Below are positions 8,570-36,156 of a stretch of DNA of 36,156 nucleotides, piece after piece. Source of the DNA: Elusimicrobiota bacterium. GTDB lineage: Bacteria; Elusimicrobiota; Elusimicrobia; Elusimicrobiales; UBA9959. The notes below the pieces were generated by a model. The model searched no databases and was not told where the DNA came from. It saw only the letters and a list, made by a program, of their open reading frames with translations. The stretch lies in the NCBI GenBank assembly GCA_016209085.1, contig JACQWV010000016.1, forward strand, positions 1 through 36,156, given 5' to 3'. Each line of letters begins with the position of its first letter. Position 1 is the first letter of the stretch. Made by a program: the position numbers and the translations under genes.

Positions 8570-8622
8570 ATAACGACAGAATATGGAATTTAGAATTCTT
8601 TTGCTTCTCTTCTTTTGTTGCT

Positions 8623-8727
8623 GGTTACTGCTGTTTTTTGCAGTTGCTGTTACTGGTCACTGGTTACTGGTTACTGCTGTTTTTTGCAGTTGCTGTTACT
8701 GGTCACTGGTTACTGGTTACTGCTGTT
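8623..8727. repeat. 46-bp tandem repeat, about 2.3 copies, built of 7-bp units
   Basis: Units begin at 8623, 8669 and 8715 with GGTTACTGCTGTT and have exactly 46-bp spacing. Inside, the motif is a degenerate 7-mer (GGTTACT, GGTCACT). It lies between the Ycf46-like gene and tRNA-Arg and belongs to the class of 7-bp repeats seen at several other gaps in the window. Confidence 0.9.
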
Positions 8728-13877: not shown

Positions 13878-14660
13878 TTAGTTCAGAGGCGCGTAACCAC
13901 CAACTGCAGTACTCGTGGAAATATTCAGTATATAGGTTCCGGTGCTATAACAGAATTGACCTATCGCAGCCGGTGTCAGTAATTCGCAATTCGTGTCGGT
14001 GAAAATAGTAACAGTCTGCGGTATAGCGCCGGTAAGTTTCGTAGCGTCCACCAACCCCGCCGCCGTCGTTATCGTATTGGGACCGCTGCCCGCTATTATA
14101 ACCCCTTCTACTTTAGCGTTACCTGTAAATGTCCCACTTGAAGCGGTTATTCCGCCGTTGGTAATCACCACTGAAGTGCCGACCAAAACCTCATTCAAGC
14201 CCACAGCCGCTGTTAATGACGCGCCTGTGTTATAGGTCTGCGCGCCGGTAAACGTATTAGCCCCAAGTATTGCAGCTGTTCCGTTTATTTTGGTCGCTGC
14301 TATCGCTGCTGAAGCGTTTATGTCCGTATCCGCTATGGCGCCGTTCACTATGTGCGTTGATACTATGGTCCCAGTTATCTTGTCGCCTGATATGGACGAA
14401 ACATCAGCGTCCGTTATGTTCAGCGCAGCCAGCTTGCTCTTGGCTATTGCTGCTGCTGTATTAATGTCCGCATTCGCTATGGTGTCGTCCAATATCTCGG
14501 CTGACGCTATGTCGCTGCCTAATAATGATACTTGAGCGGATAATGCAGCGTTTGCTATTGAAGCAGCCGGCAATGTTATTGATGTCCCTACCTTAAATAT
14601 ATTCACTGTTCCTGACGATACATAAAACGTGGCTCCGCTTTGTAATGTGTCCTGCAGCAA
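13878..14660 (-). CDS. Modular surface protein, C-terminal fragment (frameshifted)
   Basis: A 260-codon frame carrying LQSGATFYVSSGTVNIF, the helix-rich AxIANADINTAAAIAKSKL, and ITDADVSSISGDKITGTIVS repeats typical of phage-tail-fibre/adhesin-like proteins of candidate phyla. It ends in a short beta-rich domain (FCYSTGTYILNISTSTAVGG). It lacks its own signal peptide and ribosome binding site, and continues the frame of 14603-15082 after a frame change at CTGCAG (14652-14657). It is probably the 3' part of one broken gene spanning 13878-15524. It could be translated only if the frames are restored. Confidence 0.6.
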   Translation of the reverse strand: MLQDTLQSGATFYVSSGTVNIFKVGTSITLPAASIANAALSAQVSLLGSDIASAEILDDTIANADINTAAAIAKSKLAALNITDADVSSISGDKITGTIVSTHIVNGAIADTDINASAAIAATKINGTAAILGANTFTGAQTYNTGASLTAAVGLNEVLVGTSVVITNGGITASSGTFTGNAKVEGVIIAGSGPNTITTAAGLVDATKLTGAIPQTVTIFTDTNCELLTPAAIGQFCYSTGTYILNISTSTAVGGYAPLN

Positions 14661-15070
14661 TAATAATTGAACTCTGTGTTGTCTACAACACCTGTGTTTA
14701 TTTTGGTCGCTGCTATCCCTGCTGAAGCGTTTATGTCAGCGTCAGCTATTGTAGCGTTCACTATGTGCGTTGATACTATGGTCCCAGTTATCTTGTCGCC
14801 TGATATGGACGAAACATCAGCGTCCGTTATGTTCAGCGCAGCCAGCTTGCTCTTGGTTATTGCTGCTGCTGTATTAATGTCCGCATTCGCTATGGTGTCG
14901 TCCAATATCTCGGCTGACGCTATGTCGCTGCCCAATAATGATACTTGAGCGGATAATGCAGCGTTTGCTATTGAAGCAGCCGGCAATGTTATTGATGTCC
15001 CTACCTTAAATATATTCACTGTTCCTGACGATACATAAAACGTGGCTCCGCTTTGTAATGTGTCCTGCAG
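14283..15070. repeat. 375-bp direct repeat in the modular surface protein gene
   Basis: Copies 14283-14657 and 14696-15070 lie 413 bp apart and differ at about 11 positions, nearly all in the first 60 bp; about 300 bp are almost identical. Each copy ends, on the gene's coding strand begins, at CTGCAG, and each junction at that point changes the reading frame. This fits recent duplication or conversion, or a collapse/misjoin in assembly. Confidence 0.85.
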
Positions 15071-15082
15071 CCCCATCCGCAA
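14603..15082 (-). CDS. Modular surface protein, middle fragment (frameshifted)
   Basis: This frame holds the first copy of the repeated module (DTLQSGATFYVSSGTVNIF, then ASIANAALSAQVSLLGSDIA and SKLAALNITDADVSS). It overlaps the signal-peptide fragment (15006-15524) in another frame. The homologous protein order reads VPAGFADG in the upstream frame followed by DTLQSGATF in this one, so a 1-nt difference near CTGCAG (15065-15070) separates them. After KINTGVVDNTEFNY the frame loses homology and the module resumes in the frame of 13878-14660. Confidence 0.55.
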   Translation of the reverse strand: MRMGLQDTLQSGATFYVSSGTVNIFKVGTSITLPAASIANAALSAQVSLLGSDIASAEILDDTIANADINTAAAITKSKLAALNITDADVSSISGDKITGTIVSTHIVNATIADADINASAGIAATKINTGVVDNTEFNYYCCRTHYKAEPRFMYRQEQ

Positions 15083-17149: not shown

Positions 17150-17203
17150 TTGTGTTTACCTATATCTATATTACCTATTACCTCTTACCTCATATCTCAT
17201 CTA
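17150..17203. repeat. AGGTAA-type short repeat array before the porV-like gene
   Basis: On the minus strand the motif AGGTAA occurs four times at 7-17 bp spacing (GAGGTAAGAGGTAATAGGTAA, with one more just before the ATG). It belongs with the degenerate 7-bp repeats elsewhere in the window. The last AGGTAA lies about 8 nt before the start codon and could act as ribosome binding site. Confidence 0.6.
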
Positions 17204-21008: not shown

Positions 21009-21011
21009 AAG

Positions 21012-21140
21012 TAGCTGCAGAGCAAAGCTCTGCCAAGTGATTGAGTTATTAAGTAATTAAGTGATTAAGCGATACGTTTGAAATTTAATTGCTTTTCAAA
21101 CTTAATCTCTCAATATCTCAATAACTTAATTACTGAAAGA
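21012..21140. repeat. Hairpin plus degenerate 7-bp repeats after sppA
   Basis: GCAGAGCAAAGCTCTGC (about 21015-21031) is a perfect hairpin that also occurs, minus one A, near 35967. It is followed by TTAAG-type repeats at about 7-bp spacing (TTATTAAGTAATTAAGTGAT) and, after CTTTTCAAAC, their inverted counterpart (CTCAATAACTTAATTACT). Confidence 0.7.
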
Positions 21141-21692: not shown

Positions 21693-21826
21693 GATAGTGA
21701 AGAGTGGTTAGTGGCGAGTGGCTAACTGCAGTGGCGAGTGATGAGTTATTAGTGGTGAGTAAAAAAACTAATCACTACTCACTAACCACTATCCACTGCT
21801 GTTAATTGAACACTATTCACTGAAGT
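21693..21826. repeat. Inverted array of degenerate 7-bp repeats before polX
   Basis: AGTGGTTAGTGGCGAGTGGC with further GAGTGAT/GAGTTAT units reads in one direction. After AAAAAA it is followed by the complement (CACTACTCACTAACCACT). The whole array could fold into a long imperfect hairpin. The end (CACTATTCACTGAAG) resembles the TTCACTGAA arms of the palindromes at 12533 and 13198. Confidence 0.8.
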
Positions 21827-23585: not shown

Positions 23586-23587
23586 TA

Positions 23588-23690
23588 GTATAGCAAGAAG
23601 TATCGCAAGGTTAAGATATAGAAAATAGAAATTGAGGGGAAAATCTTAATCTCAACCTTAATCTTAACCTTAATCTGCAGTTATCAGAGG
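23588..23690. repeat. Inverted array of degenerate 7-bp repeats between polX and nnrE
   Basis: AGGTTAAGAT-type units on one side and AATCTCAACCTTAATCTTAA plus CCTTAATCT on the other are roughly complementary. This is the same style of array as at 21012, 21693 and 25545. No gene is present. Confidence 0.75.
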
Positions 23691-23697
23691 AGACTTT

Positions 23698-24429
23698 ATG
23701 TCTAAGATTCCGCAGATAAAAGAATATGAAGGATATCCTGTGGTAACGGCTGAAAAAATGAAATATCTTGACTTAAAAGCCTCAACCGAATACGGAGTTC
23801 CGCAAATTGCGCTCATGGAGAACGCGGGAAAAGGCATATCCCTGGAAATTCTCAGAATTATCAAAGAAGAGCTTTCTCTTGAAACAGGCAATTCCGGTAT
23901 TATAGTCTGCGCCGGCAGGGGAAACAACGGAGGAGACGGCCTCGTGACTGCAAGATATCTCAAGCAGGCGGGAGCGCGCGTTGAAATCTTTATAATACCT
24001 CCCAGAGAAGGCGCTTACGGCGAGCTTGTAAACGAGAACCTGCAGAAAGCGAAAGAGAACGGCATAAGAATTGAAACTGTCTCCCGCGAAAATGTTGAAG
24101 GCCTTCTTGAAATTTTTTCAAAAGCAGACGTCCTGATAGACGCCCTGCTGGGAGCGGGTTCCATCGGAAAGCCTTCAGGCCCGGTAAAAAGAGTGATTCA
24201 GTTAATGAATAAAAGCGCAAAACCCATAGCGGCCGTTGACATACCTTCGGGCTTGAGCCCGGACACCGGCCATCACAGCGGAGTCTTCATAATGGCAAAA
24301 TGGACTTTTACGCTCGGATTCCCCAAATCCGGGCTTATGGCTTCGCACGCATTGAAAAATGTCGGAAAATTAAAGATAATAGATATAGGCTATCCGGCTC
24401 AGCTGGTTGAAGAAGCCAAACAGCAGTGA
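23698..24429 (+). CDS. nnrE: NAD(P)H-hydrate epimerase (YjeF N-terminal domain)
   Basis: A 243-residue stand-alone YjeF_N protein that epimerises damaged (R)-NAD(P)HX so a dehydratase can repair it. The signatures are ALMENAGKGIS, CAGRGNNGGDGLVTARYLKQ (nucleotide loop), DVLIDALLGAGSIGKPSGPV and VDIPSGLSPDTGH. The fused ADP-dependent dehydratase (NnrD) found in many bacteria is absent and not seen elsewhere in the window. AGAGGAG lies 6-7 nt before the ATG. Confidence 0.93.
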   Translation: MSKIPQIKEYEGYPVVTAEKMKYLDLKASTEYGVPQIALMENAGKGISLEILRIIKEELSLETGNSGIIVCAGRGNNGGDGLVTARYLKQAGARVEIFIIPPREGAYGELVNENLQKAKENGIRIETVSRENVEGLLEIFSKADVLIDALLGAGSIGKPSGPVKRVIQLMNKSAKPIAAVDIPSGLSPDTGHHSGVFIMAKWTFTLGFPKSGLMASHALKNVGKLKIIDIGYPAQLVEEAKQQ

Positions 24430-24507
24430 TTAGTGGTTAGTGACGAGTGGCGAGTAAAAACAAGAAGTGAAGCCCCACCGAAGCGAGCAAAGCGAGTCGA
24501 AGGACAG
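24425..24507. repeat. Short 7-bp repeat array before the response regulator
   Basis: AGTGATTAGTGGTTAGTGAC then GAGTGGCGAGT (the same words as at 21693), followed by GAAGCGAGCAAAGCGAGTCG, which resembles the stretch after tRNA-Arg. The open frame running through it is not likely to be translated, as the regulator's ATG at 24508 has its own AAGGA. Confidence 0.75.
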
Positions 24508-24952: not shown

Positions 24953-27900
24953 TCAACTTTGCCTGGGACTTTTTGGAATAAATTTTACGACCTCTGCGAG
25001 CGTTTTGAGCGGATTTTGCGCGTTAAACAACCGCATACCGTCGCCGAATTTAGAAGGCAGAAAAAATCCCCTTTCTGCGTCACGGAGCGCACGAAAACTT
25101 CAGGCAGTTTTTTCTTGAGTTTTATTATTTCAGCCAGATTCATTAACGGAGCCGGCGCAGGACCGCATAAATCCTCAAGTTCAGCCATCACAATGTCTAT
25201 TTTTTCAAAATCAGAGTTTAACAGCCTTTTATAATAATTGAGACGCTCCATTTCATCAGGCATGTAATCCGGCGGTATAAATGCAGGGATGTCAAGGTCT
25301 ATTTTTGTTTCCGGCTTTTCAATTTCCGTCTTGCCCTTTATCCTGTCTATCTCGTGATTCAGCAGTTTTATGTACATTTCAAGCCCTATCGCGCTGATGA
25401 ATCCGTGCTGTTTTACGCCCAATAATTCGCCTGCTCCCCTTATTTCAAGGTCCCTCATGGCAAGGCGGAAGCCCGAACCCAATTCCGTAAACTCCTCAAG
25501 CGCGGCAAGACGTTTGACCGCCTCTTCGCTCATTGCAGTCTCCGGTTGCCGGTCACAGGTCACAGGTTCCAGGTCGCAGGTTTTGTTTTTTTTCGTCTTG
25601 TAACTTGCGACTTGAGACTTGAGACTTGAGACATGAGACTTAAAAAACAGGTAACAATAAGCCTTCTGCTTCTCCCTGCCTATCCTCCCCCTCAACTGAT
25701 ACAATTGGGCAAGGCCCAATTCATGAGCGTTTTCAACTATCAGGGTATTTACCCGCGGAATGTCAAGCCCGGATTCTATTATTGTGGATGCCAGAAGCAT
25801 GTCGTATTTTCCGTTTAAAAAATCCCACATGTGTTTTTCCAGCAGGTCTGATTTTACCCGGCCGTGAACAACGGCGATTCTCAGGTTAGGCATGAGTTTT
25901 TTCAAAAAGGCCTTCGCGGAATCTATCGTGCGCACCCTGTTGTGGACATAATAAATCTGACCTCCCCGTGAAAGTTCAAAGCCGACCGCGTCTATCACGG
26001 TTTTTTCGTCAAAAGGCCTCACGAATGTTGAAATGGGAAGCCTTCCCAAAGGCGGGGTTTCTATGACCGACATGCTTTTCAAATTTGAAAGGGACTGGTA
26101 AAGGGTCCGCGGAATCGGCGTTGCCGAGAGCGTCAGCACGTGAGCGCCGGATGAAATGTTTTTAAGTTTTTCCTTGTCTTTTACCCCGAACCTGTGCTCC
26201 TCGTCTATTACCAGCAGGCCGAGATCCCTGAATCTCACGTCGTCCTGCAGGAGCCTGTGCGTGCCTATTATTATATCTACGACTCCGGACTTGAGTTTTT
26301 CAAGCGTTTTTTTCTGCGTTCCGGGAGTCTCAAATCTTGAAATGACCGCTATATTCACCGGGAACTCCCTGAATCTTGCGGAAAAAGTCCTGTAATGCTG
26401 GTCGGCCAGAATCGTGGTCGGAGCAAGCGCTGCCGCCTGCCTGCCGTTTACAACGCATCTCATGGCGGCTCTCATGGCCACTTCTGTCTTGCCGAATCCC
26501 ACGTCTCCGACAACAAGCCTGTTCATGGGTTTGTCCGAGGAAATATCGGATAAAACTTCCCTGATAGCCCGCTTCTGGTCGGCTGTTTCCTCAAAAGGAA
26601 ACGAATCCGCGAATTCTTTCTCAAAATGCTCCTCTTCAGGCATGGGTTTTACGGAAACGGCCAGACGCCTGGCTTCTGCCGAGAGAATTTCCCTGGCAAG
26701 AGTTTCAAGCTCTTTCTTTACTCTGTTTTTCACTTCCTGCCATGTTTTCGTATCCATGTGGGAAAGTTTGGGTTCCTTGCCTTCGGAACTTATGTATTTC
26801 TGCACGCGGTTGAATTCATGCAGGGGGACCATCAGTTTGTCGCCTCTTGAATATTCAATGCCTATGCATTCGGCGAAAGCCGCCTCGCCGGACACGCTCG
26901 CATAAGGGACCTGTTTGATTCCCTGATACCTGCCTATGCCGTAATCTTCATGAACCAGGTAGTCCCCGGCTTTTAAATCAGTCCATTTGAAAAATCTGGA
27001 TTTCGGCTTTGACGCCCGGCCGGATTGCCCCCATCGGCGCTGGAAAATTTCGCAAGTCGTTATAACCGCCGTTTTGGAAGGAGGATGTATAAAACCTTCC
27101 AATATGTCTCCGGTCAGAATTGAGCAGTATTTGTCCATGTCATAATCCAGAAAAAGTTCCGTTATCCTTTCAATCTCCCCTCTGTTTATGCAGAATACGC
27201 CGGTTCTGAAACCCTCTGCTGCCAGACGCTTTATTTCGCCTCTCACGGATTCCATCTCTAAATTGAAACTCAGATTTTTGAGACACCCGAAATTCACCCC
27301 GTTAGAAATAAGCCGCCCCGAGGCGGCTGCCGCCGTGCCCTTCGGGCAGGGCGGATTTCTAACGGGGTAAACTGCAACAGGCATTCGGGAAATAATAAAT
27401 ATTTTTGCAAATTTATCGCCAAAAATTTTCTCTGTTTTTTTATAGTCCGCTCCTGCCTCAATTACGACTTCCCCGTTCTCCATACAAAGAATATCCGACA
27501 AAGGCGTATTCCCCGATACCGCGTTCGGAATGACTTTAATTTCCTGCTGAAAATCAAAAGTGTGCTGGGTTTCTATTTCAAAATGCCTTATGCTTTCAAG
27601 AATGTCGCTGAAAAACAATCTGACCGGTTTCTCTAAATCATAACTGAAAAAATCAATTACGGAGCCTCTCACAGCGAATTCGCCTTTGTCTTCCACAAAA
27701 CCCGTCCGGGAATATCCTGCCTTGTGAAATCTGCTTATAAGCTCGTCTCTTGAATAATTCAGCCCTGTTTTCAGCGTAAACGATAATTCCAGGTATTCAG
27801 CTTTGGATATCGCCCCGGATTCAAGAGCTGCCGGGCTGGTCAGAAGAATAATTTTTCTATCCTTAACGGCTTTTGAATAAATTCTGTCTAAAGCAACCGA

Positions 27901-28125
27901 CCGGTCTTCCCTGAAAGAGCGCCATTTAATTATTTCAAAATCAGTTTTTAATCCCGAATAAAAGACATGCAAGGACAAAAGAGCGGCTGATATTTCCGGA
28001 AAATTATCTTCTTCAGTCAGGCACATCAGAGCATCAGCATGCCTGGCAAGGCGGCTAAGAGCGAAATAAGCGAAAGCGCTTAAATTGGGAACGCCGCTTA
28101 CAAAAACCGCAGATTTAGTCTTCAT
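24953..28125 (-). CDS. mfd: Transcription-repair coupling factor Mfd (apparent frameshift near the 3' end)
   Basis: The uninterrupted frame runs 28125 to 24985. Conserved parts: RNA-polymerase-interacting domain (DLKAGDYLVHEDYGIGRYQG, near residue 388), Walker A VVGDVGFGKTE (near 540), DEEH box VIDEEHRFG (near 640), and the TRCF C-terminal domain (FIPPDYMPDEMERLNYYKRL). Mfd displaces stalled RNA polymerase and recruits UvrA. After QKGDFF the frame loses homology; adding one T to the T6 run (25061-25066) continues as LPSKFGDGMRLFNAQNPLKT and LAEVVKFIPKSPRQS to a stop at 24953, clearly the real C-terminus. The start at 28125 avoids 22 unconserved codons. Two repeat elements lie in frame (residues about 253-277 and 829-861). 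Confidence 0.9.
25545..25640 (-). repeat. Degenerate 7-bp repeat array inside mfd
   Basis: On the coding strand it runs CATGTCTCAAGTCTCAAGTC with more 7-bp CAAGTCT/CAAGTCG units, then a T/A-rich turn, then CCTGCGACCTGGAACCTGTG with 7-bp CCTGTGA units. The halves can pair if G-T wobble is allowed. It is translated in frame as SHVSSLKSQVASYKTKKNKT and CDLEPVTCDRQPET, a stretch without counterpart in Mfd between the helicase core and the TRCF domain. Confidence 0.85.
27296..27368 (-). repeat. Palindromic element family B inside mfd
   Basis: Perfect 14-bp outer arms ACCCCGTTAGAAAT (27296-27309) and ATTTCTAACGGGGT (27355-27368), with nested stems GCCGCC/GGCGGC and TGCCC/GGGCA. It is translated in frame as YPVRNPPCPKGTAAAASGRL then ISNGVNFG. 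The flanks AAATTC and AAAC are shared with the copy at 33881-33937. Confidence 0.9.
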
Positions 28126-28188
28126 AATTATAATGATATAATTTTTTATTGGGCTCATCGTGGAAAAGTATGGGTAAAATTTATGAAT

Positions 28189-28247
28189 CAATAAATCCCG
28201 AAGGTTGGGAACAATTTGGTTATGGCGGAAACCTTCGGGGTTTATTG
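28189..28247. repeat. Palindromic element upstream of mfd
   Basis: 18-bp arms CAATAAATCCCGAAGGTT (28189-28206) and its complement (28230-28247) with one mismatch. It lies about 65 bp before the mfd start, in the promoter region. Confidence 0.85.
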
Positions 28248-35743: not shown

Positions 35744-36156
35744 ATTACCATTCTACATAATTTTGTCAAACAGCATGCGGAAACAAGGTGTTAATGAGGA
35801 ATACTTAATTTTGTAACATTTAAATATTAAAAATCTAAAAGAACTGGTTAAGGATTAATTGTAAATCCTCACTAAACACTGTTATGTCAGGCAATAAATT
35901 AGGCTTGCCAGGGGCAAGCAACTACAAGGCGAATAGTAGTGGCAAAGTTTATTTTGCCTATTCGCAGAGCAAGCTCTGCAACTACAAGCATTGGGTAGTT
36001 TCACGCCCATGGCGTGATATCATTGAAATTCCTGGGCGTAAATGTAGGGGCTCAATTCATTGAGCCCGTCCCTGCGTACGCAGGGACTGTCCCGTCCTTA
36101 TAATTCAAGGATAGGGACGAAAAATATGCGGGTCGGATGAATCCGCCCCTGTTCCA
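35744..36156. repeat. Gene-free end region made of hairpin repeats
   Basis: No gene is seen. It contains GTAAATCCTCACTAAACACTG (family of the 12396 arm), GCTTGCCAGGGGCAAGC followed by AACTACAAG, GGCGAATAG/CTATTCGC (about 35928-35965), GCAGAGCAAGCTCTGC followed by AACTACAAG, CACGCC/GGCGTG, and at 36042 TGTAGGGGCTC with its complement GAGCCC, then TCCCTGCGTACGCAGGGA. The unit 'stem + CAACTACAAG' repeats twice, and the TGTAGGGGC start matches the element at 28411. Confidence 0.75.

Follow-up and report, generated by a model that had tools for sequence, protein, structure and literature searches.

The Mfd (transcription-repair coupling factor) of an Elusimicrobiota bacterium contains a translated array of 7-bp repeats, and this array probably belongs to a class of degenerate 7-8-bp satellites, genome-wide and lineage-specific, that is generated and turned over locally, is partly dispersed, and is tolerated in a loop of the protein. 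The window that we analysed is a stretch of 36,156 nucleotides, contig C40 of a draft genome of 2.35 Mb in 140 contigs (G000 below). Its mfd gene lies on the minus strand at 24985-28191 and is intact, with an open frame of 1068 codons counted from a TTG start, or 1045 codons from an alternative ATG at codon 24. The encoded protein scores 880.6 bits against TIGR00580 (cut-off 800), has the complete set of expected Pfam domains (UvrB_inter, CarD_TRCF_RID, DEAD, Helicase_C and TRCF), and finds its closest named relatives among uncultured Elusimicrobia.

An earlier note on this DNA had described a 7-bp repeat array at 25545-25640, translated as part of mfd, and the array is real. With Tandem Repeats Finder the period is 7 both at 25551-25581, where the unit is GGTCACA, and at 25603-25641, where it is ACTTGAG (90% matches). 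The best 21-base window matches at lag 7 in 20 of 21 positions; the expectation under codon shuffling is 9.2, and none of 500 shuffles came up to the observed value. The periodic arms together span 25538-25646, and the array is translated as KSHVSSLKSQVASYKTKKNKTCDLEPVTCDRQPETA. Arm 1 (25595-25646, minus strand) has the coding-strand unit CAAGTCT and is read as KSHVSSLKSQVASYK; arm 2 (25538-25582, minus strand) has the unit CCTGTGA or CCTGCGA, is inverted relative to arm 1, and is read as TCDLEPVTCDRQPE; an A/T-rich spacer, or loop, to which no strand is assigned (25583-25594) separates the two. Both of the 7-mers named earlier, CAAGTCT and CCTGTGA, are thus present, but they are not independent words: CCTGTGA reads CAGGTCA on the opposite strand, and the arms are therefore inverted versions of a single CARGTCN word. 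This layout of inverted arms around an A/T-rich spacer matches that of the two-armed intergenic elements.

When the protein is compared by phmmer with Thermus-type Mfd structures, residues 406-851 and 887-1038 are aligned and residues 852-886 are left without a counterpart; since the alignment stops at 851 and restarts at 887, the stretch is an insertion. Relative to solved Mfds it is in frame and occupies codons 852-886, or 25534-25638 on the minus strand, limits that supersede those given before, and amounts to some 35 extra residues. While the insertion itself, put earlier at about 33 residues, is borne out, its supposed placement between the helicase core and the C-terminal domain is not: it sits in a surface-type loop, immediately behind the strand after GRIGR (motif VI) and ahead of the helices of the TRG (translocation) region. 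In an AlphaFold model the corresponding residues 831-862 (854-885 in the present numbering) have a pLDDT of about 30 and lie between a strand and a helix, and the helicase core is well modelled. Most likely the insert is a passive linker, disordered and exposed to solvent, with which Mfd still works; we infer that Mfd is active and that the insert is functionally neutral.

Alignment of Mfd orthologues, which had been proposed as a check on the insertion, finds it absent from Mfds outside the family and finds different arrays in the same loop of relatives within the family. Our comparison covers 29 Mfds of the same family with a readable loop. Seven of them (G000, G001, G002, G004, G010, G013 and G015) have strong period-7 arrays there, at values reached by 0 of 500 codon shuffles, and G019 has a weaker one (P = 0.002); the remaining Mfds have charged linkers without periodicity, a few of them with nominal P values of 0.02-0.05 that we left uncounted because many tests were run. 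The presence of a charged, non-periodic linker at this position in many relatives is what one would see if the insert were an ordinary low-complexity linker, its periodicity being a coincidence or an assembly artefact. We consider this highly improbable, given the shuffling result for the seven Mfds, the recurrence of the array word (GACTTGAGACTTGAGAC, up to three mismatches) at 159 places in the genome versus 32 for a reversed control, and the occurrence of arrays in independent assemblies of several genera.

On a tree built from Mfd alone without the loop, some deep branches of which have low support, the array-bearing lineages are scattered (genera g1, g2, g3, g5 and g11), and some are sister to array-free genera. 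Closely related species differ in their words at one Mfd site: in genus g3 (Mfd distance ~0.08 substitutions/site) G013 has CCAGTCG and G002 has AAGGCTG/CGAATCC, and in g11 (~0.10) G010 has AATAGCG and G019 has AAGTCAC. Heptamer replacement is seen in the form of differences between species; with other repeats at one spot in each sister species, the arrays give the impression of unsettled filler DNA that a protein is able to take in. Since a DRQP remnant (DRQPxxA) is common to the Mfds of G000, G001 and G019, part of the array may go back to one old insertion that has since been turned over, rather than to several insertions. The words of the Mfd loop come for the most part from the vocabulary of the genome concerned, and in G002, G010, G001 and G015 the word recurs elsewhere in the same genome. 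Array density outside the loop is 17-225 per Mb in genomes with a periodic Mfd loop versus 0-30 per Mb in the others (Mann-Whitney P = 0.004; P = 0.012 after subtraction of the Mfd-bearing arrays).

Could selection have kept the insert as a linker that adjusts Mfd, for instance its contacts with RNA polymerase or UvrA, the 7-bp arrays being the raw material? The loop is extended in all 29 family Mfds, from 19 up to 60 residues and in most of them about 29-60, compared with about 8-9 residues in the Mfds of most other phyla, and its recurrent retention could reflect a function. However, neither the sequence nor the length of the loop is conserved even in sister species, and it is modelled as disordered, so that we regard adaptive maintenance as very unlikely. 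The best reading is one of mobile or fast-turnover heptamer satellites that are tolerated in a loop, rather than of a function in Mfd.

In good agreement with the genome-wide period-7 enrichment that had been predicted from the window, 882 kb of G000 contain 96 period-7 and 46 period-8 arrays, against 0-7 for each of the periods 5, 6, 9, 10, 11 and 13, and a Markov-1 null produces none. Note that genome-wide densities are sample estimates and that some contigs were picked because the word was present; a 187-kb sample that was not picked for it has 75 period-7 and 27 period-8 arrays per Mb. Such an excess of tandem 7-bp units is a trait of genomes with heptanucleotide satellites or long simple-sequence repeats. 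The idea that each array has its own 7-mer is not supported as it was put: the arrays draw on a limited vocabulary (AGTGRNT, AAGTCNC, GTTACTG and others) that is shared between loci and genera, and in their units the core is constant while other positions vary (AGTG plus NNT, for instance). Among 61 genomes, AGTNNNT arrays are found in 10 and AAGTCNC arrays in 15, with control hits mostly zero or few. Some arrays are recent expansions, for instance a 46-bp duplication with 98% matches at 8617-8727 of the window, a near-pure CAAGTCT array of ~95 bp (locus L112) and an AAGGCTR array of 275 bp in G002.

The arrays in the gaps of the window had been described as being of period 7 and usually made of two complementary halves. 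This holds for two intergenic elements with inverted arms, one at 21034-21138 (period 7/8), which belongs to the largest dispersed family of the sample (27 elements), and one of AGTGGTT type at 21696-21797 (period 7), which is followed by CTGCTGTTA. It does not hold for the others: the intergenic array at 23587-23676 has two arms, one an imperfect inversion, but a period of 6/12 (AATCTT/CTTAATCTCAAC); the GTTACTG-type array at 8617-8727 is a 46-bp tandem (direct) duplication (2.4 copies, 98% matches); and those at 17169-17190 (TATTACC type) and 24425-24443 (AGTGATT type, across the end of a YjeF-type gene) are short single arms. None of the six has an assigned strand. A tandem duplication of 413 bp (1.9 copies, 97% matches) spans short ORFs on the minus strand at 14283-15071 of the window. 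Where arms are paired they are indeed mostly inverted: among 34 adjacent pairs the inverted match is the better one in 25 and the direct match in 5. Inverted matches in the arrays' own flanks (at least 15 of 18 positions) were found in 62 of 208 cases, versus 8 and 13 in two controls. We considered, and rejected, simple fold-back copying, in which one arm would serve as template for the other: within a locus the arms resemble each other no more closely than do arms taken from separate loci with the same word, a point against this mode of origin.

Inverted arms are also a hallmark to be weighed in favour of a different origin, in which a transposase, perhaps the product of one of nine Y1/RAYT-type genes of this genome, mobilises the arrays as non-autonomous elements of MITE or REP type, and the Mfd array is an in-frame insertion as in the Rickettsia palindromic elements. 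When elements are grouped by a common stretch of at least 80 bp with no less than 75% identity, 60 of 174 fall together with another one, and the element at 21696-21797 has a 102-bp copy, 96% identical, on contig C94 (10473-10574). Against this, the other 114 elements are singletons, no target-site duplication is seen around the 96% pair, whose identity ends within repeat units, and the Mfd array matches only heptamer words elsewhere in the genome and falls outside the larger clusters of elements that share at least 80 bp. Array ends, which make up ~1.4% of the sequence, carry the end motif TAACNNCAG/CTGNNGTTA 22 times in the outward orientation versus 4 in the inverse one, as a transposable element might, but the motif was picked post hoc and is incomplete at the Mfd array, where full TAACNNCAG is absent. 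Copies of TAACNNCAG stand at the outer ends of arrays with differing heptamers (e.g. window 8720 and 21796; L063:6183, L085:7030) and often adjoin the ribosome-binding site of the next gene. Recognisable copies of a dispersed MITE-like element, whose arms are of AATTCAAAATTCAAC type and which has a CCAAATTC hairpin at its end, lie at L081:43-120, L088:2942, L111:4541, L118:13910 and L119:12048.

A possible enzyme for such transposition is at hand, as G000 has nine Y1_Tnp matches, one of which was tested and scored 88.4 bits as a REP-associated tyrosine transposase (cut-off 80), together with GTAG-tagged palindromes at 26 places versus 0 in the control. Nevertheless, genomes with more Y1 matches do not have a significantly higher array density (rho 0.40, P = 0.14), and the four Y1 genes in the sample lie 166, 1511, 2458 and 14967 bp from arrays, compared with a median of 1895 bp for random positions; with neither a significant correlation nor systematic linkage, we rejected Y1/RAYT as the driver of the arrays. 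Having both the palindromes and a RAYT, the genome does qualify as containing a REP/RAYT system, a result that bears on the REPs and not on the heptamer arrays. GTAG-tagged REP-like palindromes are found in the window at 21011-21033 (plus strand), adjoining the array at 21034, and at 35964-35985; these are its only two matches, with none near the Mfd array at 25.5 kb. Such palindromes number 39 in G004 and 30 in G008 (controls 0), and on contigs C24, C39 and C56 of G000 they lie beside or overlap a Y1 match. REP-like palindromes occur within 60 bp of arrays in 9 of 33 cases, versus 3.6% of random positions; since both live in gaps, this proximity is no evidence of a link. Taken with the evidence on both sides, transposition as the origin of the arrays strikes us as unlikely. 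The earlier suggestion of an active generating mechanism rather than one copied sequence is accordingly right in part: the differences between sister species at the Mfd site speak for active turnover, while the families and the 96% copy over 102 bp do not fit generation without copying. Copying and local generation both seem to be at work.

A further candidate, the palindrome AAGGARYTCCTT as a common core, was rejected for the Mfd array. Genomes of g3 and g11 are strongly enriched in it, with 39-78 copies against 1-4 for the control, and it lies near arrays there; sampled copies in G002, G010, G013, G019 and G025 are often in the loop between heptamer arms; with only 3 copies in G000 it leaves the Mfd array unexplained.

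The arrays are concentrated between genes: 97 of 149 are outside ORFs although ORFs make up 91% of the sequence. Intergenic arrays lie mostly between co-directional genes and often directly 5' of a ribosome-binding site. This distribution, as well as the fixed core and variable positions of the units, would suit regulatory or nucleoid-binding sites acting as DNA or RNA, as proposed for similar heptamers in Beggiatoaceae (PMC4679880) and Geobacter (PMC2700814), the copy in Mfd then being a by-product. Such a role is improbable in our judgement, since each genome has many words, about a third of the arrays (52 of 149) are inside mechanically called ORFs, sister species differ in the word at the same site, and in the mfd mRNA pairing of the arms would, from the sequence, give A-C mismatches and not G-U pairs.

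How a unit of seven bases can persist inside a gene follows from arithmetic. As 7 and 3 have no common factor, all three frames of a heptamer array encode one and the same cyclic heptapeptide, a property that we verified. CAAGTCT gives QVSSLKS, while its reverse strand always meets a stop. The units of the Mfd arrays that fall in the stop phase are deviant, namely CCTGGAA and CCGGCAA in arm 2 of G000, AAGGCTT in G002 and AAAAGCG in G010. At stop-prone heptamer positions in Mfd, the stop triplet is retained in 0 of 4 in-frame units versus 8 of 10 out-of-frame units (Fisher P = 0.015), a small sample in which, moreover, an in-frame stop is impossible to see in an open gene. The pattern nonetheless suggests that purifying selection keeps the frame open.

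Arrays in other proteins differ by position. Those no more than ~45 residues from the N-terminus are hydrophobic (mean Kyte-Doolittle 0.68), whereas internal arrays are polar (mean -0.86; P = 3.7e-5), which suggests that selection sorts arrays by the sequence they encode. Approximately ten or more N-terminal arrays read, judged by eye, as putative signal-peptide cores, followed in L102 and L118 by a lipobox-like FSGC. Putative signal-peptide or lipoprotein core arrays of G000 include L098:8436-8481, L118:5246-5292, L102:10574-10614, L088:5744-5784, L080:10687-10726, L099:1752-1792 and L064:8995-9042. At least three separate arrays per protein, several of them KSQVTSH-type linkers, are present in L110 (1726-aa ORF) and L080:4770-8388 (1206-aa ORF). 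We put forward, tentatively though as a serious possibility, that 7-base satellites give rise to new protein segments irrespective of reading frame: arrays that are free of stops may enter genes in any phase and, in this lineage, serve as a repeated source of disordered polar linkers (KSQVTSH type, including that of Mfd) and of hydrophobic signal-peptide or lipoprotein cores (LFTLYSL and LLVTGYW types), sorted by selection at each location.

For the satellites as a class, our preferred explanation, local generation and turnover with partial dispersal, would run as follows. Elements often consisting of two inverted arms around an A/T-rich loop would be born and replaced locally, through slippage or through recombination or conversion between arrays that have a small vocabulary in common, and part of them would also be dispersed as short inverted-arm elements. 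Slippage or conversion as the generator, together with its enzyme and the turnover rate, is what we infer here. Arrays would survive where the harm is small, that is in intergenic gaps, disordered loops and signal-peptide cores. Because the Mfd loop between the post-motif-VI strand and the TRG helices tolerates insertions, it may have been repeatedly colonised or overwritten in the family. Entry of an array would be insensitive to phase, as every frame gives the same cyclic heptapeptide, provided that the total length restores the frame, and after entry purifying selection would remove only stops and frameshifts.

Heptamer arrays are already known from several bacteria, and the present case works alike. 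The TAACTGA repeats of Beggiatoaceae, Cyanobacteria and Bacteroidetes are genome-wide intergenic 7-bp direct repeats, mostly just 5' of start codons, with a minority in ORFs in the stop-free orientation, read as LSVISYQ (MacGregor 2015, PMC4679880). Similarly to these, the Elusimicrobiota heptamers are intergenic across the genome with an ORF minority read as a heptapeptide; they differ in that no one word dominates, each genome having dozens, that arms are commonly inverted, and that the words at one site of a housekeeping enzyme vary between sister species. Geobacter metallireducens has paired octa- and heptanucleotide sites and GGACCGG elements, with opposite-strand pairs at variable distance and one class within genes, sometimes several per gene (PMC2700814). 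Tandem 7-/8-bp units, several classes and opposite-strand pairs are shared with our case, but each Geobacter class forms a single alignable family (16-49 sites) that is described as regulatory, whereas most loci here are unalignable beyond the unit. In Xanthomonas and Nostoc, GGGNATC-type heptamer simple-sequence repeats are likewise in intergenic excess, vary in copy number, and form long arrays at different genes in two close species (PMC4692102); they are G-rich candidate quadruplexes, unlike the mostly not G-rich Elusimicrobiota words.

Two further systems place repeats inside genes, and the Mfd array belongs to neither. Rickettsia palindromic elements are short inverted repeats of alignable families of ~150 bp, found in frame in many unrelated housekeeping genes (reviewed in PMC10969869). 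The Mfd insertion is also in frame in a conserved protein and absent from orthologues outside the family; however, it is a singleton made of heptamer arms, without an alignable dispersed family of ~100-150 bp. The tandem repeats of Borgs and their aaTR proteins evolve fast, lie within and between genes, and produce disordered protein segments, as here, but all of their ORF units are divisible by three (PMC9879509). The Mfd unit of 7 is not, and a non-triplet unit works in genes here because 7 is coprime to 3. Among open-licence papers, a search for tandem repeats of Elusimicrobia and for non-triplet repeats in signal peptides gave nothing relevant, and we found no description either of arrays as signal-peptide cores or of recurrent array turnover in a housekeeping protein.

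An excess of heptamers in bacteria has been reported repeatedly, and its origin is not agreed. Mfd, a universal and alignable housekeeping protein in which one loop bears different heptamer arrays from one sister species to the next, offers a dated, orthology-anchored site for measuring the rates of array birth and replacement. That the 7-bp unit is insensitive to frame explains how a non-triplet satellite can live inside genes. Finally, the signal-peptide cases suggest a simple route by which a junk repeat becomes a functional part of a protein.
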